From Arcobacter sp. (GTDB taxonomy: Bacteria > Campylobacterota > Campylobacteria > Campylobacterales > Arcobacteraceae), in contig PKUK01000009.1 of the NCBI GenBank assembly GCA_002869535.1, forward strand, positions 62,001-126,000: a stretch of DNA of 64,000 nt, read 5' to 3'. The notes beneath the pieces were generated by a model. It worked only from the letters and a program-made list of their open reading frames with translations, was not told where the DNA came from and did not search any database. Shown here in pieces: positions 77 to 54,991 of the stretch. The translations under genes were made by a program, and so were the position numbers. The first letter of the stretch is position 1. Each line of letters begins with the position of its first letter.

Positions 77-2174
77 GTTTTTTCATATACTCATACAAGT
101 ACAAGTATTGTCTTAGCTCTTTTAGCGTTTCATACTTTAGTCCTTGTTCAATCCATTGTTTAATCTCATCTGGGATTTCAAGTGGCTTTAGAAGTGCTTC
201 TTTTTTCTCTTGTGATATTTTTTCATGCTCACTTAAAACAGAAATATGAGATAAAACAGAGCTCAAACCCAAATCTCGTATTTGTGCTATCTCTTCAACT
301 GTCTTATTCTCTTGGATTAAATCAAAAGTCTCCAAATAAGTTTTTGTGAGTTTTTTTAGTGGTACTTTTTCTTCTAACTTTTCACTAAACTCTTCTTTGA
401 TACTTTTACATAAAGTTAAAAAGGCTTCTCCATATTTTTCATATTTTACAAGACCTACGCCATTTATATCTAGCATCTCTTCTTTTGTAAGGGGAAGTTT
501 TGAAGCTAACTCTTTTAAAGTCTTATCACCAAATATCACATAAGCTGGTACTTCATGTTCCAAAGCTATCTCTCTTCGCAAGGTTCTAAACTTCTCATAC
601 AACTCTTCATCAAAACTAAGCTCAGTCACTTCCTCTTCAATCTTTTGAGCAATACCTAGCTTATCACTATCTATTAAAAGTTTTTCTTCACCTTTTAATA
701 TTTGCATTCCTAGATTTGTTATTTTTAAAGCTCTAAACTCACCTAAATCTAGAGCTTTTAGGTCTATTAGTTTATCAGAAATTGCTATCCATTCATTTTT
801 GCTTTTATCTGCTCCCAAGCCATAAACATTGAGCTTGTCATGTCCAAACTCTAGTAGCTTTTGATTTTTTGAGCCCCTTAATATATCGATAATATGATTT
901 ACTCCAAATCTCTGTCCACTTCTATAAATAGCACTTAAAAACTTTTGGGCATCTACACTTACATCTACAAGTTCTACTTCACCCTTTGTACAATTATCAC
1001 ACAAGGTTTTACAATCATCTATCTCATCTTCAAAATAGTTTGCGATGATTTTATGCCGACAATTATTAGAGACACAGTATCGATACATAGCTTCAAGTTT
1101 ATCAAGACCAGTTTGCTTATATCCAGTATCTATAGCATCTTCTATTTGTATTTTTCTTTTTACCTCATCAGATTTTGAGTAAAGTAAGTACACATAAGAC
1201 ATATCACCATCACGCCCAGCACGACCAATCTCTTGATAATAGTTTTCAAGTGTTTTAGGCAAGCTTGTATGTATGACAAAACGAATATTTGACTTATCAA
1301 TTCCCATACCAAAAGCAATAGTAGCTACAACTATATCAATCTTCTCATAAACAAAAGCATCATAAACTTCATCTTTAACAGCAGGCGATAATCCCGCATG
1401 ATAAGCTTTTGAGGCATAGCCATTTTCACACAAAAACTGAGCTGTACCTTCTGCTTCTTTTCGAGTAAAGGTATAGATGATTACACATAAGCCTTTATGT
1501 GATTTTAGGAAACTTAATATCTGTTTCTTACCATTTGATATTCGTGGTTCTACTTTTATATCAAGATTATCCCTATGTGTTTTAGCACGAAAATGCCTAG
1601 CATTTTGCAAGTTTAAATTTGAAGCAATATCTGCTTCTACTTTTTTAGTAGCAGTTGCAGTAAATGCAGCAATAGGAGTACTAGGAAATAGTCTTTTAAG
1701 TTTATCAAGGTTCCTATACTCAGCTCTAAATTCATGTCCCCAAGCAGATACACAGTGTGCTTCATCTATTACAAAATAGTTTATATCAATTCGCTGTAAC
1801 ACTCCAACAAACTCATTAGAAGTAAATCTCTCAGGTGCCACATAAATAAACTTCAACTCACCTTTCAAAAGCTTCTGCATAGTAAAACCATTCTCTTCAC
1901 CACTTTGAGAAGAACTTATCATTTCAGCTTTTATATCTAAGTCATTGAGTGCTTTTATTTGGTCTTGCATAAGGGCGATTAGTGGAGAGATTACGACTGT
2001 TATTCCATTCATAAGGAGGGTTGGGAGTTGATAACAAAGTGATTTACCACCACCAGTTGGTAAGATGGTCAATACATCTTGTTTATTGATAATGCTATCT
2101 ACAACTTCTTCTTGGAAGCTTCTAAAGTGTTCATGTCCGAAAATATCTTTTAGTATTTTGTGTTTATTATTCAT
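66..2174 (-). CDS. recQ: ATP-dependent DNA helicase RecQ
   Basis: Superfamily 2 3'-5' DNA helicase for recombination and replication-fork repair in the cytoplasm. Walker A TGGGKS lies at residues 40-45 and the DEAH box at 137-140, followed by the RecQ-specific CVSAWGHEFR aromatic loop. Helicase motif VI appears as QEIGRAGRDG. A zinc-binding cysteine cluster (CRHK...CKTLCDNC) lies near residues 370-395, then winged-helix, HRDC (VPAYVIFGDKTL) and a C-terminal HTH-like extension. At 702 aa it is longer than the roughly 610-aa E. coli enzyme, and the extra length is this C-terminal region, as in some other RecQ proteins. I see no Shine-Dalgarno sequence before the ATG, but a TATGCT -10-like hexamer lies 11 bases upstream, so the mRNA leader may be very short. 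It is transcribed alone. Confidence 0.95.
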   Translation of the reverse strand: MNNKHKILKDIFGHEHFRSFQEEVVDSIINKQDVLTILPTGGGKSLCYQLPTLLMNGITVVISPLIALMQDQIKALNDLDIKAEMISSSQSGEENGFTMQKLLKGELKFIYVAPERFTSNEFVGVLQRIDINYFVIDEAHCVSAWGHEFRAEYRNLDKLKRLFPSTPIAAFTATATKKVEADIASNLNLQNARHFRAKTHRDNLDIKVEPRISNGKKQILSFLKSHKGLCVIIYTFTRKEAEGTAQFLCENGYASKAYHAGLSPAVKDEVYDAFVYEKIDIVVATIAFGMGIDKSNIRFVIHTSLPKTLENYYQEIGRAGRDGDMSYVYLLYSKSDEVKRKIQIEDAIDTGYKQTGLDKLEAMYRYCVSNNCRHKIIANYFEDEIDDCKTLCDNCTKGEVELVDVSVDAQKFLSAIYRSGQRFGVNHIIDILRGSKNQKLLEFGHDKLNVYGLGADKSKNEWIAISDKLIDLKALDLGEFRALKITNLGMQILKGEEKLLIDSDKLGIAQKIEEEVTELSFDEELYEKFRTLRREIALEHEVPAYVIFGDKTLKELASKLPLTKEEMLDINGVGLVKYEKYGEAFLTLCKSIKEEFSEKLEEKVPLKKLTKTYLETFDLIQENKTVEEIAQIRDLGLSSVLSHISVLSEHEKISQEKKEALLKPLEIPDEIKQWIEQGLKYETLKELRQYLYLYEYMKKQSN

Positions 2175-2206
2175 TTTAGGATGGTAGCATAGTTTGAGTT
2201 AAGGGT

Positions 2207-2338
2207 TTATGTAAATAAACTTAATAACATCTCAGTTAATTTTATTTTTAAATAAGAATAGACAATTCTTTTTAAACCTTTTATTGAAACATTTAAACAT
2301 ATTTTTATATCCAACTTTTGTATTTTTTCTCTTTCCAT
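2207..2338 (-). CDS. Possible 43-aa small protein
   Basis: A short ORF (begins MEREKIQKLDIK, ends LLSLFT) in the 329-bp gap upstream of recQ. It is preceded by AAGGA six bases before the ATG, which is a good ribosome binding site. The peptide is basic with a hydrophobic tail and resembles nothing I know. AT-rich gaps produce such ORFs by chance, so only the ribosome binding site supports it. Confidence 0.3.
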   Translation of the reverse strand: MEREKIQKLDIKICLNVSIKGLKRIVYSYLKIKLTEMLLSLFT

Positions 2339-2381
2339 TTTAATTCCTTATTAATTTTAAATTAATAATTAGCTAATTATC

Positions 2382-2411
2382 AGGAAACATATACTTACGA
2401 ATAAGTTTCCT
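2382..2411. repeat. Inverted repeat AGGAAAC/GTTTCCT
   Basis: A 7-bp inverted repeat with a 16-base spacer in the gap between the 312-aa gene and the small ORF. It could be an operator or a weak hairpin. The rest of 2339-2503 shows nothing else I can name. Confidence 0.3.
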
Positions 2412-2503
2412 TGTTTGTACAAATGGTATTATAGATTATATTTTTTGTTAAAAAAAGACATTTATAAACTAGCTATAAATAAAAGGTATTGTGAAAAAGT
2501 AAA

Positions 2504-3442
2504 TCAATAACGGTAGTTATTAAATAAATTTGTTTTTACTCCATGTAAAAAACATCTATATTGTTCTTCGTCAATTAATTCTTTTGCTTGTTTATAATAT
2601 GCATCAAAAGAATAAAACTCTTCAGTAGAAATTTTTTTTGTTTCCTTCCAATACTTTGTAATTTCATCAGTAATATATTTTTCAGATAGTCCTACAACTT
2701 TACAATCATAAATAAATAGTAAATCAACCATCTTCCCCTCTAAAGTTTTTGGGCTTTTATGTTTAAAAATTTCGCATTCTTCTATACTACACATAAATGC
2801 TGTTATATTCTCATCTAATTCCTCAAATGGTGATTTAATATAAGAAGGATCGCTATCAAATTTATCTTTAATAGCTTTTATTGTTTCCTCTATATCGCCT
2901 AAAGGCTTTGTAAAATCTATTTCTACTAATACTTTTTTTGATATTTCACCTTGTTTAATATAAGGTTGTACTAAATTGTATTTACGAGGTTGAATTATAG
3001 TTTTAATATCAAAAGTGTGGTCTTCAGTAGAATGATATATTATTTCTTCTAATTCGTCTTTTGTTAATTTTTCTTTCAGGCTTTCAAAACGCATAAATCC
3101 AATAGTAAACTCACAATCATTTACTATTTCATTATATCTTTCTTCTTCAAGGGATTCCCATACTGTTGATAAAGGAACTAATGATATAGGGGGAAAATCA
3201 TCATCAAGTAAATGTGATACCCAAGCAAGATATTTTCGTTTATTAATTTTCTCTAAATATTCAGAATCTTTTTCAACCCTTCTAATTTCACATGCTAAAC
3301 AAAAAATATATGGTTTTTCATATTTACTTGATTTGCTAAGTTCATTTTCAAAGGAAATATATATTTCACTATCTCTATTAACTAAACCTGTAGAGATAAT
3401 TTCTTGTAGTTTTAATTGTTGCTTTTTTGATGGTCTTGCCAT
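2504..3442 (-). CDS. Hypothetical protein, 312 aa
   Basis: I do not recognise this protein. It begins MARPSKKQQLKLQE, a basic start with a possible short helical DNA-contact segment. A mostly acidic alpha-helical body follows, with Lys/Glu-rich stretches, a few scattered cysteines and no signal peptide or membrane segment. A central segment (TFDIKTIIQPRKYNLVQPYI) and a Trp-rich motif (YLAWVSHLLDDDFPP) would be useful search seeds. It stands alone between a repeat-rich non-coding segment and recQ, a context typical of acquired DNA. The upstream AAGAGGTTAAA provides a ribosome binding site. The MARPSKK-type start resembles phage or accessory proteins of unknown function, but no role can be assigned. 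Confidence 0.7.
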   Translation of the reverse strand: MARPSKKQQLKLQEIISTGLVNRDSEIYISFENELSKSSKYEKPYIFCLACEIRRVEKDSEYLEKINKRKYLAWVSHLLDDDFPPISLVPLSTVWESLEEERYNEIVNDCEFTIGFMRFESLKEKLTKDELEEIIYHSTEDHTFDIKTIIQPRKYNLVQPYIKQGEISKKVLVEIDFTKPLGDIEETIKAIKDKFDSDPSYIKSPFEELDENITAFMCSIEECEIFKHKSPKTLEGKMVDLLFIYDCKVVGLSEKYITDEITKYWKETKKISTEEFYSFDAYYKQAKELIDEEQYRCFLHGVKTNLFNNYRY

Positions 3443-3559
3443 TTTAACCTCTTAATTAAAATTTTAATTTATTATTTATTCTAACAAAACTTTTTGATAA
3501 TTTTACAATTTATTTTATTTTCGATTTTTATAATATCATAAACACCTAAAGGTCTTCGC

Positions 3560-4080
3560 TTTATCTTACTTTGTGTGGACAAAGTAAGCAAAACCACCAA
3601 CGGTTTCAAAGCCCTTGGGGTTCCCTCACTTATTATTTTTATCTTTTCTGCTTGGCAAAACTCGTTTATTAAAACTTGCATTTAGCAACTTTTAAACACT
3701 CAAACAGTTGCCAATCTTGTTTAGAAAAGAGAAAAATAAACATTCGGCTTTTGCAAATGTTGGAATCAAAGGTGGGATAAGGACATTTACATTTTTGATT
3801 TGTTTAGATTCCTAACTTTTACTTACTCTAATTAATTGTCTGATAATACAGAGGAAATAGCAACCGTAGGAATTTCTTTCTGCCTTTGATGAAGCTAAAA
3901 TTTTAGGCTTTTTTTTCGGGGAACAGTGAGGACTGTTTGAGTAAATAATGACCTAAATGGTCATTATTTAGGAGTTCCGCAACGCAGAAAAAAAAGACTG
4001 AAATTTTAGGAAGCTTCGCCTTCATCAACTCGGCAGTCTTTTTTGCTTACTTTTTCGAGACCAAAAAGTAAGAAAGCGGA
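3560..4080. repeat. Non-coding segment bounded by inverted TTACTTT hairpins
   Basis: The 690-bp gap 3443-4132 holds no convincing gene. Its core is bounded by two related hairpins in opposite orientation: CTTACTTTG/CAAAGTAAG at 3565-3588 and CTTACTTTTT/AAAAAGTAAG at 4046-4072, each flanked by GC-TTTT on the inner or outer side respectively. Between them lies a nested inverted repeat (3886-4028). The 10-mer CTCAAACAGT also occurs in both orientations, near 3700 and at 3931-3940. The layout resembles a MITE-like or REP-like dispersed element, but a second genomic copy is needed to establish that. Confidence 0.5.
3886..4028. repeat. Imperfect inverted repeat enclosing a 12-bp hairpin
   Basis: The left arm runs TTGATGAAG..CTAAAATTTTAG.CTTTTTTTTC. 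The right arm, read on the opposite strand, runs TTGATGAAG..CTAAAATTTCAG.CTTTTTTTTC. The centre contains a perfect 12-bp stem (TAAATAATGACC/GGTCATTATTTA, 3942-3970, loop TAAAT) and a smaller hairpin AACAGT-GAGG-ACTGTT (3922-3937). As RNA this would fold into one long branched structure. Confidence 0.6.
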
Positions 4081-4132
4081 GAGGTTTACCTCTTCAAGAG
4101 AGTATTATAAAAAAATAATACCTTTAAACATA

Positions 4133-5053
4133 CTAATTGATTTTCCCCTCTTCTTCTTTCGCCCAAATACCAGCAAGAATAGAACCTGAAATATTATGCC
4201 AAATACTAAATATAGCTCCAGGAAGTGCACTTAAGGCACTAAAGTATTTCATAGCTAAAACAACAGCTAAGCCGGAGTTTTGCATCCCTACTTCTATGGC
4301 AACTGTTTTACATACAGTTTTATCATATCCAAACATTTTGGCAAAATAATAACCACTAAGTAGTCCTAAGAGATTATGACAAGCTATTGCTAGCATCAAT
4401 GATAATGCGATAGTAGAAATTCTACTTTCATTAAGCCCTATAATAATACCTATTATAAATACAATAGAAATAATAGACAATAAAGCAAAAATATCATGTC
4501 TTTTTTCGATATATTTATTAAAAAAATGATTTATTATAAGTCCTACAACAACAGGTATAAATACTATTTTTAAAATACTAAACAACATACTTAAAGCAGG
4601 AACTGGTACAGTTTGACCCACATAAAGAAGTGTTAGGTATGGAGTTATAATTATTGATAAAAGAGTTGATACAATAGTCATAGTAATAGAAAGTGCCACA
4701 TCAGCTTTTGCTAAAAATGCTATTACATTTGAAGCTGTTCCACCTGAAACTGCCCCTACTAAAACCATACCCACAAGTAATTCATCTGATAAATTAAACA
4801 ACTTAGATACTAAAAAAGCAAATAAAGGCATAAATAAAAACTGTAATATCACTGTCAAAGCTATGATTTTGGGTCTTTTAAAAACTCTTTTAAAATCATC
4901 AAGTTTTAGTGTTATTCCCATACAAAACATAATAAGAATCAAAAGAGGAATAATCCAAGACTTAAAACCAATTACCAAATTCGGTTGTAGATAGGCAAGA
5001 AGAGAAAATAGTATTGCCCATAAAGGAAATAAAATAGAAATCTTTTTTATCAT
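4133..5053 (-). CDS. BASS-family sodium-dependent organic-anion transporter
   Basis: Inner-membrane transporter of the bile acid:sodium symporter (BASS) family. It has 306 aa and about nine or ten hydrophobic segments. Family signatures are GTASNVIAFLAKADVALS in the sodium-binding crossover region and EVGMQNSGLAVVLA near residues 250-265. The name does not imply bile acids. Characterised bacterial members take up small organic acids, for example PanS for ketopantoate. It is the last gene of the minus-strand cluster, 70 bases after an isochorismatase-fold hydrolase and a D-2-hydroxyacid dehydrogenase, which suggests a 2-oxo- or 2-hydroxyacid substrate. That substrate is inference. Confidence 0.85.
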   Translation of the reverse strand: MIKKISILFPLWAILFSLLAYLQPNLVIGFKSWIIPLLILIMFCMGITLKLDDFKRVFKRPKIIALTVILQFLFMPLFAFLVSKLFNLSDELLVGMVLVGAVSGGTASNVIAFLAKADVALSITMTIVSTLLSIIITPYLTLLYVGQTVPVPALSMLFSILKIVFIPVVVGLIINHFFNKYIEKRHDIFALLSIISIVFIIGIIIGLNESRISTIALSLMLAIACHNLLGLLSGYYFAKMFGYDKTVCKTVAIEVGMQNSGLAVVLAMKYFSALSALPGAIFSIWHNISGSILAGIWAKEEEGKIN

Positions 5054-49064: not shown

Positions 49065-49070
49065 CATTTT
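49041..49070. terminator. Bidirectional terminator, midA-like and DUF779 genes
   Basis: Perfect 12-bp stem AAAATGCTACTT/AAGTAGCATTTT with loop ATTAAA, overlapping the ends of two convergent genes. It has A- and T-runs at its feet. Confidence 0.7.
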
Positions 49071-49443
49071 AATTTAAATCTTCTATTTCTTTATACTCTT
49101 CATCTGTAAAAATTCTAGATCTTGTAATAAATTGATAACCTAAATCTATTTCCAATGAAAAAGAGTTTCCAAAAGCAGCTTTTTCTTTTTTTACGTCAAT
49201 AGTTATATGTGAATGCTTAAAATATTCAAATTGATCTTTATCTATAAAAAATTCACAGCCACAAATTTCACCCATTTTTATATTACGACTTGGAACATAA
49301 AAATCACTTTTAGCATAACACATAGGAGCTGTTCCATCACAGCATCCACCACTTTGGTTAAATACCAACTCACCTGTTTCTTCTTTTAATCTCTCTATTA
49401 CCTCAGCAGCAGCCGGGGTTACAGATAATCTTTCAGTTGCCAT
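49069..49443 (-). CDS. DUF779 family protein
   Basis: A 124-aa protein with TERLSVTPAAAEVIERLKEE, LVFNQSGGCCDGTAPMCY and GCEFFIDKDQFEYFKHSHITIDV, which are DUF779 hallmarks. The several conserved Cys (GGCCDG, MCY, CGCEF) suggest metal or thiol chemistry. DUF779 genes commonly sit beside aldehyde dehydrogenase genes, as here, but their function is not established. It is 96 bases after the aldehyde dehydrogenase, with an intrinsic terminator between, so its level may be lower. AAGGAAAAA serves as ribosome binding site. Confidence 0.85.
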   Translation of the reverse strand: MATERLSVTPAAAEVIERLKEETGELVFNQSGGCCDGTAPMCYAKSDFYVPSRNIKMGEICGCEFFIDKDQFEYFKHSHITIDVKKEKAAFGNSFSLEIDLGYQFITRSRIFTDEEYKEIEDLN

Positions 49444-49539: not shown

Positions 49540-51036
49540 CTAGAAAAAACCTAACGCATTTTTGCTGTAAGAAGTTAAGATATTTTTTGTGTGTCTATAA
49601 GAGTTTAACATCATCATATGAGTTTCTCTTCCGATTCCTGATTTTTTATATCCACCAAATGATGCATGAGATGGATACATATGATAACAGTTAACCCATA
49701 CACGACCTGCTTCAATCCCTCTTGAGAATTTATGTAATTGATGTGCATCTCTTGACCAAACACCAGAACCCAATCCATAAATAGTATCATTTGCAATAGC
49801 TAATGCTTCATCTTCATCTTTAAAAGTAGTAACAGCAAGAACTGGTCCAAAAATCTCTTCTTGGAAGATTCTCATTTTATTGTGACCTTTAAATAGTGTT
49901 GGTTGAATATAGTTTCCATTTGGATATTTTTCACTTTTATATTCATCACCACCGATTAATAGTTCAGCACCCTCTTCTTTACCAATTCTGATGTAATCCA
50001 TAATTTTCTCTTTTTGAGAAGTTGAACATTGAGCACCCATCATACACGTAGGATCTAAAGGATCTCCTAATTTGATAGCTTTAACTCTCTCTAATACTCT
50101 TGCCATAAATGGCTCATAGATTGACTCTTGGATTAATGCTCTTGAAGGACAAGTACAAACTTCCCCTGAGTTAAATGCAAACAGTACAAGACCTTCAATA
50201 GCTTTATCAAAGAACTCATCATCAGCATCAATTATTGATTCTAAGAAGATATTTGGTGATTTTCCACCAAGTTCTAATGTAGATGGGATAATGTTTTCTG
50301 TAGCATATTGCATAATAAGTTGTCCAGTTGTAGTTTCACCTGTAAAACCAACTTTTTTGATATCTGGATGAGTTGATAAATGTTTACCAATTTTTCCACC
50401 AGCACCATTAATGATATTTACTAAACCTTTTGGAAGAACACCTTGAATTGTTTCCATTAACATCAAAATTGACATTGGAGTTGCAGATGCAGGTTTTAGT
50501 ACTACTGCATTTCCAGCTGCTAATGCAGGAGCTATTTTCCATGCTGCCATTAATAAAGGGAAGTTCCAAGGAATAATTTGAGCAACAACACCTAAAGGCT
50601 CATATACTTCTTGAGAAATTGTATTTTCATCTAAATCAGCAACAGAACCAGCTTCTCCTCTAATAACAGAAGCAAAATATCTAAAGTGATCAACTACTAA
50701 AGGTACATCTGCTGCAAGTGTCTCACGTACTGCTTTACCATTATCTAAAGTTTCAGCAATTGCCAACGCTTCAGAGTTAGCTTCAATTGCATCTGCAATT
50801 TTATTTAACATAGTAGATCTTTCAATAACAGAAGAGTGTTTATAAGAATCAAAAGCTACCATTGCTGCTGCAACTGCTGCATCTACATCTGCTTCATTTG
50901 ATCTTGGAATTTTAGTTAAAACTTCACCATCAACAGGAGAAAGATTTTCAAAATATTCACCACTTTTTGGAGCTATCCATTCTCCACCAATGAAGTTCTC
51001 ATATTGAGATTTATATGTTGGTTTTACGTATGCCAT
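49540..51036 (-). CDS. NAD(P)-dependent aldehyde dehydrogenase
   Basis: A 498-aa cytosolic ALDH oxidising an aldehyde to the acid. IIPWNFPLLMAAWKIAPALA and GFTGETTTGQLI are nucleotide-binding segments. The general base Glu is in LELGGKSPNIF, the nucleophile Cys in FNSGEVCTCPSRAL, and IFGPVLAVTTF and ASFGGYKKSGIGRET occur near the end. The start AYVKPTYKSQYENFIGGEW matches the ExaC/AldB acetaldehyde-dehydrogenase group, for which acetaldehyde or related short aldehydes are typical substrates. Upstream lie four phased GCTATA motifs and a divergent FIST-kinase/regulator pair. Confidence 0.92.
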   Translation of the reverse strand: MAYVKPTYKSQYENFIGGEWIAPKSGEYFENLSPVDGEVLTKIPRSNEADVDAAVAAAMVAFDSYKHSSVIERSTMLNKIADAIEANSEALAIAETLDNGKAVRETLAADVPLVVDHFRYFASVIRGEAGSVADLDENTISQEVYEPLGVVAQIIPWNFPLLMAAWKIAPALAAGNAVVLKPASATPMSILMLMETIQGVLPKGLVNIINGAGGKIGKHLSTHPDIKKVGFTGETTTGQLIMQYATENIIPSTLELGGKSPNIFLESIIDADDEFFDKAIEGLVLFAFNSGEVCTCPSRALIQESIYEPFMARVLERVKAIKLGDPLDPTCMMGAQCSTSQKEKIMDYIRIGKEEGAELLIGGDEYKSEKYPNGNYIQPTLFKGHNKMRIFQEEIFGPVLAVTTFKDEDEALAIANDTIYGLGSGVWSRDAHQLHKFSRGIEAGRVWVNCYHMYPSHASFGGYKKSGIGRETHMMMLNSYRHTKNILTSYSKNALGFF

Positions 51037-51124
51037 TTTTTTTCCTTTTGTATTTAAATTAATGTCAAAATATGAAAAATTTTGATTACCAGAATTTTTC
51101 TGTATCGAAATCTTACATGAATTT

Positions 51125-51164
51125 TATAGCCTGAATATAGCGAAAAGTATAGCATGAATATAGC
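51125..51164 (-). promoter_or_regulatory. Four phased GCTATA motifs upstream of aldehyde dehydrogenase
   Basis: On the plus strand TATAGC starts at 51125, 51136, 51148 and 51159, giving spacings of 11, 12 and 11 bp. The longer unit TATAGC-n-TGAATATAGCG is repeated with one difference at a 23-bp period. All copies face the same side of the helix. OmpR-family response regulators bind such tandem repeats. The hexamer also resembles a -10, so stacked promoters are an alternative. It lies about 90 to 130 bp upstream of the aldehyde dehydrogenase start. Confidence 0.6.
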
Positions 51165-51277
51165 GTTGATATTTTTCTTATAAAAGCCCATTTTAAAGTA
51201 TTTACAGCATTTAAAGTCTATTGAAAATTAGCCTATTTTTTTATAAAAAAATTAATATTTTATGCTACAATATTTTT

Positions 51278-53167
51278 ATGAATACTTATAACTATACATA
51301 TCAAAATAATTCATTTAAAAAAGAGATAGATTATTCTTTATTTAAAGATGAAAAAAATATTCTAATACAAATTTTTTGTGGACAAAATGAAAATACTTTA
51401 CAATATCTGACTAATCTATTAGTCAATAATTTACCAAATGCAATTATTCTAGGAACCACAACAGATGGAGAGATAAAAGATAAAAAAGTCTCTACTTTTA
51501 AAACAGTTATTTCGATATCTATATTTGAAAACACTTCTATAAAAGTCTCTATGAAAGAGGGTACTAACTCTTTTAATAGTGGATATGAAATAGCAAAAGA
51601 GTTAGTAACTGAAAAGACTAAACTTATCATTACATTTACAGATGGAACAAGTACCAATGGAGAAGATTACCTAAAAGGAATTACTGCTTTTAATGAAGAT
51701 ATCATGGTTTGTGGCGGAATGGCTGGAGATAATGGACACTTTAAACAAACCTTTGTATCTTGTGGAAAAAAGATTATAAGCTGTGGAGCAGTTGCTGTAT
51801 CACTTAATTCAGATACTCTTCAAGTATTCAATGACCACAAGTATGATTGGTCACCTATTGGAATTGAGCATACTATTGATAAGGTAAAAGGAAATAGAAT
51901 CTATGAAATTGCAGGAATGGATGCAATAGCCTTTTATGAAAAGTATCTTGGTAGTTCTGATTCATATACAGAGTTTCCACTAATAGTTCAAAGAAATGGC
52001 ATCTCTGTTGCACGTGCTGTTCTTACAAGATACCCAGATGGAAGTTTTGGATGTGGAGGTAACTTATATAAAGGTGATAAAATAAGACTTGGATTTGCAA
52101 ATGCAGAGATGATTATGAAAAATCCCGTAAAATATTTAAAAAATATAAATAACTATCAAGCAGAGACATTTTTCATATACTCTTGTATGGCAAGACGAAG
52201 ATATATGCAAAGTCTAATCAAAGTTGAAATTGAACCTTTTGCATCCATTGCTCCAACTTCTGGTTTTTTTACCTATGCAGAGTTTTTCCATACAAATAAG
52301 AAAAATGAACTTATGAATCAAACTATTACCCTAGTAGGATTAACTGAAAATACTCAACATACAAGAGATAATTTAATAAAACCAAATAAACTAGTAAATG
52401 AAACAGAAAGCTCTTATGCAAAAACTATTCAAGCACTAACAAACTTGATACAACAAAGTGCAAAAGACCACAATGAACAATCAAAAATATTAGAAGAGCA
52501 GATGAAATATTCACAAAATATTCTAAAAAATCAAAAACTTTTTTTAAGACACGCAGTTCATGAAACCAACACTCCCTTATCTGTTATTATGAGTAATATT
52601 GAATTATATGAAATGCAGTATGGCAAAGATGAATATCTTTCAAATATAGAAGTTGCAATGAAGAGTATTTTTTCTATTTATGATGATTTGAGTTATCTTG
52701 TAAAAAAAGACCAAGTAGATTACAAGGTTTATTCACTGGATTTAGTTGATTTTGTACGAAGTAGAGTCTATTTTTTCAAGAGTGTAGCAACTCAAGTCTC
52801 ATCAAAATTTAACTTAGAGTGTAATTGTGATGAGATGAAGATTAATTTTAGTGAAACAAAACTCCAAAGAATAGTTGATAACACCCTATCAAATGCCATA
52901 AAGTATACAAACAATGGTGAAGATATAAATGTAAAGGTAGAAAAAATCAATACCTTTTTTAAATTTACAGTTTCAAGTCATTCAAAAAAAATACAAGAGC
53001 CAGAAAAAATATTTGATGAATACTATAGGGAAGAAAAATCAAAAAATGGTTTTGGATTAGGATTAAATTTAGTTAAAAGAATTTGTGATGAAGAGGGAGT
53101 TATTATAAATGTTACTTCTGATTTGGATAATACAAGTTTTACATATATATTTAAGGCAAATAAATGA
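51278..53167 (+). CDS. FIST-domain sensor histidine kinase
   Basis: A 629-aa soluble kinase. FIST N (about residues 15-210, with LGTTTDGEIKD and CGGMAGDNGHFKQTFVS) and FIST C (about 220-370, with GMDAIAFYEKYLG and FIYSCMARRRYM) form the sensor. A coiled coil follows, then an H-box of a different type, RHAVHETNTPLSVIMS (His428). The ATPase domain has DNTLSNAIKYTNNGE and NGFGLGLNLVKRI. No membrane segment, so it senses a cytosolic ligand. ATG 51278 is preceded by TACAAT (51266-51271) but no ribosome binding site, so the mRNA may be leaderless. It overlaps the response regulator by 4 bases. Confidence 0.88.
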   Translation: MNTYNYTYQNNSFKKEIDYSLFKDEKNILIQIFCGQNENTLQYLTNLLVNNLPNAIILGTTTDGEIKDKKVSTFKTVISISIFENTSIKVSMKEGTNSFNSGYEIAKELVTEKTKLIITFTDGTSTNGEDYLKGITAFNEDIMVCGGMAGDNGHFKQTFVSCGKKIISCGAVAVSLNSDTLQVFNDHKYDWSPIGIEHTIDKVKGNRIYEIAGMDAIAFYEKYLGSSDSYTEFPLIVQRNGISVARAVLTRYPDGSFGCGGNLYKGDKIRLGFANAEMIMKNPVKYLKNINNYQAETFFIYSCMARRRYMQSLIKVEIEPFASIAPTSGFFTYAEFFHTNKKNELMNQTITLVGLTENTQHTRDNLIKPNKLVNETESSYAKTIQALTNLIQQSAKDHNEQSKILEEQMKYSQNILKNQKLFLRHAVHETNTPLSVIMSNIELYEMQYGKDEYLSNIEVAMKSIFSIYDDLSYLVKKDQVDYKVYSLDLVDFVRSRVYFFKSVATQVSSKFNLECNCDEMKINFSETKLQRIVDNTLSNAIKYTNNGEDINVKVEKINTFFKFTVSSHSKKIQEPEKIFDEYYREEKSKNGFGLGLNLVKRICDEEGVIINVTSDLDNTSFTYIFKANK

Positions 53168-53823
53168 AAATACTACTACTAGAAGATGATATTATGCTAA
53201 ATAATGCCATTACCCAATATCTTAAATCAACAGGACATGTTGTAATTTCAGTTATGGATGGTAATCAATGTGTGGAAACTCTAAAAAATGAGAAATTTGA
53301 TTTACTTGTTTTTGATATAAATGTTCCAGATACTGATGGACTTACTATTTTAGAAGATTTGCATAAACAAAAAAGGATGGTTCCTACTATATTTATATCT
53401 GCACTTATTGACATAGAAGATATCACTAGAGCTTTTGATATAGGATGCCATGATTATTTGAAAAAACCCTTTCATTTAAAAGAGTTGACTCTTAGAATTA
53501 ATAAAATCTTACAAACAAGACAAGTTCCCCAAGAGCATAAAAGATTATCAAAATCATATAGCTATGACTCTAAAAATATGGTTTTATTATTTGATAATGA
53601 GCCACAAATACTACCAAAAAGACAAATACAAATCATAGATTTACTCTCAGCAAATAGAAGTTTAGTTTGCAATTATGATATGTTTAGAGATTATGTTTGG
53701 AATGATGATTACATAGACAATGCTACTATTAGAGCTGAAGTAAATCGAGTAAAAAAAGTACTAAAAGAAGACTTTATTATAAATATTAGAGGAATTGGTT
53801 ATATGATTGAAAGACCAAATTAA
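53164..53823 (+). CDS. OmpR-family response regulator, partner of FIST kinase
   Basis: A 219-aa regulator. The receiver domain has LLLEDD at 4-9, phospho-Asp51 in LLVFDINVPDTDG, the Ser in FISAL and the Lys in YLKKPFHLKEL. A winged-helix domain follows (PKRQIQIIDLLSANRSLVCNY, TIRAEVNRVKKVL, NIRGIGYMIERP). The 4-base overlap with the FIST kinase marks them as a pair. The phased repeats upstream of the divergent aldehyde dehydrogenase are a plausible target. Confidence 0.92.
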   Translation: MKILLLEDDIMLNNAITQYLKSTGHVVISVMDGNQCVETLKNEKFDLLVFDINVPDTDGLTILEDLHKQKRMVPTIFISALIDIEDITRAFDIGCHDYLKKPFHLKELTLRINKILQTRQVPQEHKRLSKSYSYDSKNMVLLFDNEPQILPKRQIQIIDLLSANRSLVCNYDMFRDYVWNDDYIDNATIRAEVNRVKKVLKEDFIINIRGIGYMIERPN

Positions 53824-53839
53824 CCAATTTCTATATATA

Positions 53840-54817
53840 TTACTCCCAATCTAGTAATCTTTTATCACCTTCTAGTTTTCTTATATCTGTCACATCTTGG
53901 GACATTTCAATTACACCTTTGTAAACTTTATCTTCATCTCTTACTGCAAAATATCTAATATGTATAAATTTGCCTTTAAATTGAATCCAAAACTCAGCAG
54001 TATCTTGACGACCTGCTTTGAACTCTTCAAGTATTTTCAAAACTTGGTCAACACTCTTTGGTGGATGACAAAACTTTACTTCTCTACCTATAATTCCAGC
54101 ACTTCTAGGAAAAACTCTATCTTCTCCCCTATTATAAAATACAACTCTGTCATTTTCATCTACATAAGTAATATCAACAGGTAAAAATTTAAATATAAAG
54201 TTAACTTGTTCTGGTGTTAAATATCCTTCATCATAGTGAGTTCTATCTTCTAATGAAAAGGGTAATTCTCTTTTTTTCTTATCCAAACTTGGGTGGATAT
54301 AATCCTCTTGCTCAGGCTCTGCATATCTAACAGGAGTCTTTGACAGCATCCAACCTATCTCTTTGTCTCCCTCATACATCTCTTTCCAATCATCCTCTTT
54401 TAATAAATTCATAGCATTTGGTAAAAGACGTTGTTCTTCTACAAGAATAAGTTGAGATAAACTGTTATATATAGTGATTACATCATTTAAGATATTTTCT
54501 AAATCTTTGTTTTCTATACTTTTTCTAGCAATCTTTATTTCATCTCTAATTTGATCATGGAAAGCCCACATACCTGTACTTGGATTTGTCCAACCATATT
54601 TTTCCAAATAAGGAAAAAGCTGATTTTCTTTTCTTGCAAAATGTTTTTCAACTTCACTTATTTGATTAAAAATATTATAGAATTTTTGGAAATCAACTTT
54701 TATATCAGTTTTAAATAGTTCTTCAAAGAGCTCTTTTATAAGATTATTTTCTTCAACATAAACTTTTACAGGGTGTCCATCAGGAAACTCATCAATATAA
54801 TTTGTTAAATTTTGCAT
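53840..54817 (-). CDS. DUF438-type hemerythrin/PAS protein
   Basis: A 325-aa cytosolic protein from ATG 54817 (MQNLTNYIDEFPDGHPVKVY). The N-terminal four-helix region has the hemerythrin-like histidines and acids (HPVKVYVEEN, EVEKHFARKENQLFPYLEKYGW, MWAFHDQIRDEI, EEQRLLPNAMNLL). A C-terminal PAS domain follows (VDITYVDENDRVVFYNRGEDRVF then GREVKFCHPPKS). This DUF438 plus PAS layout suggests a sensor of oxygen, NO or iron that signals to another protein. No output domain is present. It converges on the FIST kinase/regulator pair with a 16-base gap. Confidence 0.85.
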   Translation of the reverse strand: MQNLTNYIDEFPDGHPVKVYVEENNLIKELFEELFKTDIKVDFQKFYNIFNQISEVEKHFARKENQLFPYLEKYGWTNPSTGMWAFHDQIRDEIKIARKSIENKDLENILNDVITIYNSLSQLILVEEQRLLPNAMNLLKEDDWKEMYEGDKEIGWMLSKTPVRYAEPEQEDYIHPSLDKKKRELPFSLEDRTHYDEGYLTPEQVNFIFKFLPVDITYVDENDRVVFYNRGEDRVFPRSAGIIGREVKFCHPPKSVDQVLKILEEFKAGRQDTAEFWIQFKGKFIHIRYFAVRDEDKVYKGVIEMSQDVTDIRKLEGDKRLLDWE

Positions 54818-54991
54818 ATATAAAATACCTTTTATTTTTTGATAATATAACTTAATAAAAAAAGTATTCAATGATATTAATCAATGGCTTGTCTATTTTC
54901 AACTGTACATTTAGATTATATTTTCTATTTTCATATTTTAGAAACAATTGTTATTTTAAGTAATATATAAACGTAAAATAAAAGATTAAAT

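Follow-up and report, generated by a model that had tools for sequence, protein, structure and literature searches.

Upstream of an aldehyde dehydrogenase (ALDH) gene of Arcobacter sp., four GCTATA boxes form an array that is, with a probability of roughly 0.86, the activating operator of the OmpR-family response regulator encoded beside it, or of an orthologue of that regulator. The initial annotation had predicted a response-regulator site at this place, and comparative genomics supports that prediction: similar boxes also precede enzymes unrelated to the ALDH that are associated with this regulator. The array provides a base-precise predicted operator for an apparently undescribed alcohol/aldehyde-oxidation regulon of environmental Campylobacterota, and would link the FIST sensor domain, for which the ligands are under dispute, to a defined metabolic output.

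The GCTATA array and its locus

The array sits between the start codons of the ALDH gene and the divergent FIST-kinase gene (Table 1) in the window, i.e., the whole 64,000-nt stretch of DNA analysed here. On the plus strand, TATAGC occurs at 51125, 51136, 51148 and 51159, exactly as first described and with a spacing of 11, 12 and 11 bp. The motif itself is real; however, its informative strand is the minus strand, where the array reads GCTATATTCATGCTATACTTTTCGCTATATTCAGGCTATA towards the ALDH gene and each box becomes GCTATA. The proposed 23-bp period was confirmed by the 18-mer TATAGCCTGAATATAGCG (51125–51142), which recurs at 51148–51165 with 94% identity. Placement of all boxes on the same helix face holds only approximately, since, with 10.5 bp per turn, the boxes drift by ~2.5 bp from one end of the array to the other.

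The arrangement is far beyond chance. When the 254-bp upstream region was dinucleotide-shuffled, four exact boxes at 11/12 bp never arose in 100,000 trials, and 4 of 20,000 contained two exact boxes. No other place with two exact boxes at 11 bp was found in the 2.68-Mb genome.

Pfam domains agreed with the initial gene assignments, according to which the repeats lie upstream of an aldehyde dehydrogenase and an OmpR-type regulator is encoded in the divergent operon. ExaC gave the best score of all NCBIfam families for the ALDH (823 bits), under the equivalog cutoff of 900; judged by this score, the enzyme is a close relative of ExaC and is not called ExaC here. The DUF779 gene is probably co-transcribed with it, and the leader of the ALDH-DUF779 mRNA is predicted to span about 66 nt from the putative start. 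PDB relatives of the regulator include BasR/PmrA.

A TACAAT motif 6 nt before the kinase ATG (51266–51280, plus strand) is kept in orthologues. Because this predicted −10 element lies so close to the ATG, the kinase-regulator mRNA is probably leaderless. A gene for a hemerythrin-PAS protein (53840–54829, minus strand) is convergent with the regulator gene; it was rejected as a part of the module, having no match among the loci of relatives.

Table 1. Features of the ALDH-kinase locus and of the paralogous locus. Positions refer to the window unless a locus is named.
Feature	Position	Strand	Evidence or remark
DUF779 protein	49069..49443	−	Pfam; same neighbour in orthologous loci
NAD-type aldehyde dehydrogenase (ALDH), ExaC-like, 498 aa, proposed regulated gene	49540..51036	−	Pfam Aldedh
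Predicted ALDH-DUF779 transcription start	51102..51103	−	placed 7–8 nt after the −10 from its position
Predicted −10 TAAGAT, preceded by TG	51110..51115	−	starts 15 nt downstream of box 4 start
Putative operator, four GCTATA boxes towards ALDH	51125..51164	−	sequence, shuffles, conservation in orthologues
Box 1	51164–51159	−	GCTATA
Box 2	51153–51148	−	GCTATA
Box 3	51141–51136	−	GCTATA
Box 4	51130–51125	−	GCTATA
Predicted −10 TACAAT of kinase-regulator operon	51266..51271	+	motif beside kinase start in orthologues
FIST-domain sensor histidine kinase, 629 aa, divergent from ALDH	51278..53167	+	Pfam FIST, FIST_C, HisKA, HATPase_c
OmpR-family response regulator, 219 aa, proposed array binder	53164..53823	+	Pfam Response_reg, Trans_reg_C
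Paralogous non-FIST kinase/OmpR regulator, then GCTACCCTTTTGCTAT pair	L271 (window genome C5) 509–4501

Conservation in Arcobacteraceae ALDH promoters

The ALDH is encoded in 74 of 104 family genomes, most of which also carry an orthologue of the regulator. From the Arcobacteraceae, 70 ALDH promoters were extracted: 55 adjacent to the regulator (in two of these the contig ends before the kinase, which lies on another contig), 13 from regulator-less genomes and 2 from genomes with the regulator elsewhere. At least two GCTATA boxes 11 bp apart were present in all 55 promoters adjoining the FIST-kinase/OmpR-regulator pair (four boxes in 48, five in one, three in one and two in five). None of the 13 promoters without the pair had two or more boxes, and the two promoters with a distant regulator had two boxes each. 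The association of boxes with regulator adjacency (Fisher's test, p = 3e-14) is inflated by kinship and overstates the independence of the genomes, because all 13 regulator-less ones belong to one genus-level group; their promoters may go back to one or two losses, at most to a few independent ones.

The initial annotation implied that the repeats should recur before orthologous ALDH genes. This held beside the regulator, where they are conserved; where the regulator is absent, they are degraded. Some regulator-less promoters retain a decayed pair in register, e.g., GTTACTATAATGCTATG-N9-TATAAT, as expected from regulator loss or rewiring to a paralogue.

Several promoters (L010, L028, L082, L084 and L089) have a second, weaker GCTAT pair, located ~50 bp further upstream than the main array; this pair perhaps serves cooperative binding or autoregulation.

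Geometry of the proposed operator and its promoter

When promoters were anchored on the last box, the box columns mostly carried 1.2–2 bits of information and most flanking columns less than 0.8 bits. The box consensus was GCTATATTCAN, with box 3 often being GCTAAA. In 57 of 57 Arcobacteraceae ALDH promoters, TANNNT begins exactly 15 nt downstream of the first base of the last box; with promoters of a molybdenum enzyme (19/20) and of ALDH genes from other families (6/6), described below, the 15-nt distance to the −10 is kept in 82 of 83. The −10 element of the Arcobacteraceae ALDH promoters is weak (TAGAAT, TAAGAT, TAAACT, TAAAAT) and in most cases follows a TG, while TATAAT serves as the −10 of some regulator-less promoters. 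A recognisable −35 hexamer is absent.

Given the fixed 15-nt offset, the box pair covers the −35 region, an arrangement known from PhoB-like regulators in class II activation. A 12-bp spacing, where present, falls between boxes 2 and 3 (5/5 promoters); its constant middle position agrees with a pair of two-box dimer sites and accounts for the 23-bp period. Operators of the PhoB/OmpR type consist of 11-bp direct repeats, bind one dimer per pair and lie over the −35 region of a weak core promoter. The array shares with them the tandem ~11-bp direct repeats, the fixed position over −35 and a presumed cognate OmpR-family regulator that is linked or co-occurs; it differs in the sequence of the boxes and in their number, four in most ALDH promoters.

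Other putative target enzymes and a predicted wider regulon

Sulfurospirillaceae carry the same kinase/regulator pair, where the divergent gene encodes a molybdopterin-dependent aldehyde oxidoreductase (NCBIfam, 1579 bits against a cutoff of 1100) that is non-homologous to ALDH according to Pfam. Its promoters (n = 20) carry GCTATATTCATGCTA-type pairs, with TATAAT at +15 in 19 of them by script; in the 20th, L189, the +15 offset is counted from the second box. Six promoters from further families with the ALDH adjacent have GCTATTTTCATGCTATTT-like pairs at +15. The sole exception, L136 (upstream of 2901), combines kinase/regulator and ALDH genes, yet has no recognisable box pair. At kinase/regulator copies adjoining neither enzyme, no box pair was found.

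The pattern box pair-N9-TANNNT was then searched over the 104 family genomes, with the reversed pattern as a control. Many genomes gave 3–10 forward matches, clustering 5–30 kb from the ALDH gene, versus three matches in all for the reversed controls. Sites in genome G059 precede the gene of a PQQ-dependent alcohol dehydrogenase, followed by pqqB, pqqC, pqqD and pqqE, as well as a PedC-type alcohol ABC transporter operon, a TIGR03863 binding-protein operon, a cytochrome c operon with a SoxYZ-like protein and a transporter-DUF411 operon. Promoters of the PQQ alcohol dehydrogenase had the pair at the exact geometry in 32 of 33 cases, the remaining one being cut by a contig end; shuffles reached such pair scores in ~0.2% of sequences. 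Genomes with this dehydrogenase contained 5.8 sites on average, compared to 0.9 in the others, and the regulator orthologue was present in 30 of 30. No PQQ dehydrogenase was found in the genome of the window, where the ALDH site is the only one kept. On the best reading of these patterns, the ALDH promoter would be part of an alcohol/aldehyde-oxidation regulon reduced to one promoter in this genome.

Paralogous regulator

A paralogous OmpR regulator, 51–56% identical to the first, is paired with a non-FIST kinase. Just downstream, all 11 paralogue loci carry a variant pair with the same geometry and another flank (such as GCTACCCTTTTGCTAT), three of these loci having been chosen because the site had already been seen there. 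The flanks are of the GCTACCCTTTT type at paralogue sites versus GCTATATTCA in the ALDH arrays; as the recognition helices of the two regulators are nearly identical, flanks may decide specificity. In the window's genome, the pair of the paralogue precedes genes for a small membrane protein and a sodium/solute symporter, which we take to be DUF485 and the acetate permease ActP. The paralogous locus is a sister system, perhaps dedicated to acetate, to which acetaldehyde is oxidised.

Comparison with known systems

Gel shifts with the OmpR-type regulator PceP of Sulfurospirillum showed binding to CTATA repeats over the −35 region, with a 6-nt gap equal to an 11-bp period (PMC7755780). The pceAB promoter of S. 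multivorans, with its start site at 1491183 (PMC7755780), reads GCTATAACTTTTGTA-TATCAT-N7-start and has the same 15-nt offset. The SMUL_1533 promoter, for which a start site is also published, fits too, its unit starting 15 nt before a −10 CATAAT. The PceP operator of S. multivorans/halorespirans (CTATW-N17-CTATW) resembles the array in CTATA units, 11-bp period and −35 position, and the array likewise shows the CTATA core at 11 bp and a unit start 15 nt before −10. However, the PceP site was interpreted in that study as two units 22 bp apart around −35 and not as boxes in tandem at 11 bp (PMC7755780), and PceP regulates tetrachloroethene respiration via a membrane sensor instead of a FIST kinase. 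At the pceP locus in G262 and G282, no regulator related to that of the window at E <= 1e-30 was found nearby. By sequence comparison, the site type is the same as that of PceP and the regulator is a different one, not a close relative.

Cross-binding between the sites of the regulator, the paralogue and PceP is possible, because the recognition helix of the paralogue is near-identical and PceP reads a similar core. These cases suggest a rule for the phylum, in which GCTATA-like 11-bp repeats exactly 15 nt before −10 would serve as sites for several OmpR-type regulators. If true, it would make regulons predictable from sequence.

The ped/exa cluster of Pseudomonas combines a FIST protein and a kinase with an ExaC-type ALDH, a PQQ alcohol dehydrogenase, pqq genes and ped transporters (PMC12997753). 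NosP-PedS1(ErcS'/NahK) and AgmR(ErbR) thus likewise place FIST protein and kinase genes among alcohol-oxidation genes (PMC12997753); however, the FIST protein there is separate and tied to nitric oxide/biofilm and the activator, AgmR, is LuxR-type, whereas the present system has a FIST-kinase fusion and an OmpR-type regulator. NosP also couples a FIST-FIST_C sensor to a histidine kinase (PMC12570481, PMC8846402), but its output is c-di-GMP enzymes rather than a DNA-binding regulator. A search of open-access full text returned no paper on a FIST-kinase/OmpR system in Arcobacter or Sulfurospirillum. Sites of this type have a precedent in the phylum; the open literature searched seems to contain no description of the system itself, its targets or how widely it extends.

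Proposed mechanism and alternative explanations

In the proposed mechanism, the FIST kinase would sense a signal and phosphorylate the OmpR-family regulator, two dimers of which would bind boxes 1–2 and boxes 3–4. The promoter-proximal dimer, over the −35 region, would recruit RNA polymerase to the weak extended −10 (TGTAAGAT) and so activate ALDH-DUF779 transcription. In related bacteria, this regulator would drive the PQQ-dependent alcohol dehydrogenase, pqq genes and ped-type transporters (Arcobacteraceae) or the molybdenum aldehyde oxidoreductase (Sulfurospirillaceae).

Binding of the boxes by a different OmpR-type regulator would make the FIST system a mere neighbour. The 52%-identical paralogue by the DUF485-ActP operon is a conceivable binder, as its adjoining pair has the same GCTA core and geometry, its recognition helix is almost that of the regulator and even the more distant PceP reads CTATA repeats. 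We consider this improbable: the paralogue also occurs in genomes without the FIST system, where the ALDH array is degraded, its sites carry the other flank, and arrays accompany the FIST system irrespective of which of two non-homologous enzymes is the target. Activation was also weighed against repression, in which the regulator over −35 would block the ALDH promoter. The overlap of the boxes with the −35 region, where a bound protein might obstruct polymerase, agrees with such a role, but the rest of the promoter makes it slightly less credible still. Its −35 hexamer is not recognisable, and regulator-linked Arcobacteraceae promoters have a weak −10 extended by TG, compared to TATAAT in some regulator-less ones; the offset is fixed at 15 nt, as expected for polymerase contact, and PceP promoters of like layout belong to induced genes (PMC7755780).

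Chance, or a non-functional tandem duplication of AT-rich DNA, might be suspected from the short, AT-rich unit within a 23-bp near-duplication. It was rejected as having almost no likelihood, since shuffles yielded nothing comparable, the 55 orthologous promoters keep their boxes while the flanks have diverged, and the boxes occur independently before unrelated genes. Activation by the FIST-linked regulator thus remains the preferred reading of the array.

FIST domain and putative signal

According to earlier reports, FIST domains sense NO and/or heme (PMC12570481, PMC8846402). The FIST domain of the window scored 58 bits against a NosP equivalog cutoff of 450 (NCBIfam) and, by this score, is only remotely NosP-like. 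Its residues H198, C303 and H338 were invariant in 15 homologues. A PDB sequence search with the FIST half gave matches to kinase domains only. The structure model of the FIST part (mean pLDDT 75) matched the human FIST protein FBXO22 and, less closely, cyclic-amide hydrolases and chorismatase, at a TM of about 0.4; no ligand was indicated.

Since the targets all oxidise alcohols or aldehydes, the signal is probably linked to these compounds. With somewhat less than even odds, we further propose that the FIST-kinase/OmpR system is a master regulator of alcohol/aldehyde oxidation across Campylobacterota, its operator being kept while non-homologous enzymes (ALDH, molybdenum aldehyde oxidoreductase, PQQ alcohol dehydrogenase) were exchanged, and that FIST senses an alcohol, an aldehyde or the oxidation state rather than nitric oxide.

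Additional features of Sulfurospirillaceae loci

The leader of the molybdenum aldehyde oxidoreductase gene extends 230–270 nt after the predicted start (L133 about 2665–2925, and other Sulfurospirillaceae). An RNA element in this leader was considered and rejected, no Rfam family being found at gathering score in L133 and L135. A palindrome, ATATGC-N6/7-GCATAT, occurs near the gene of the enzyme (L133 2690–2775, L135 1660–1760) and also in the kinase upstream regions of L192, L199, L201 and L202. In addition, a gene for a chemoreceptor that combines a FIST with an MCP signalling domain adjoins the kinase/regulator genes in Sulfurospirillaceae (L133 5728–7731, L134 5630–7717), which suggests chemotaxis to the same signal as that of the kinase.
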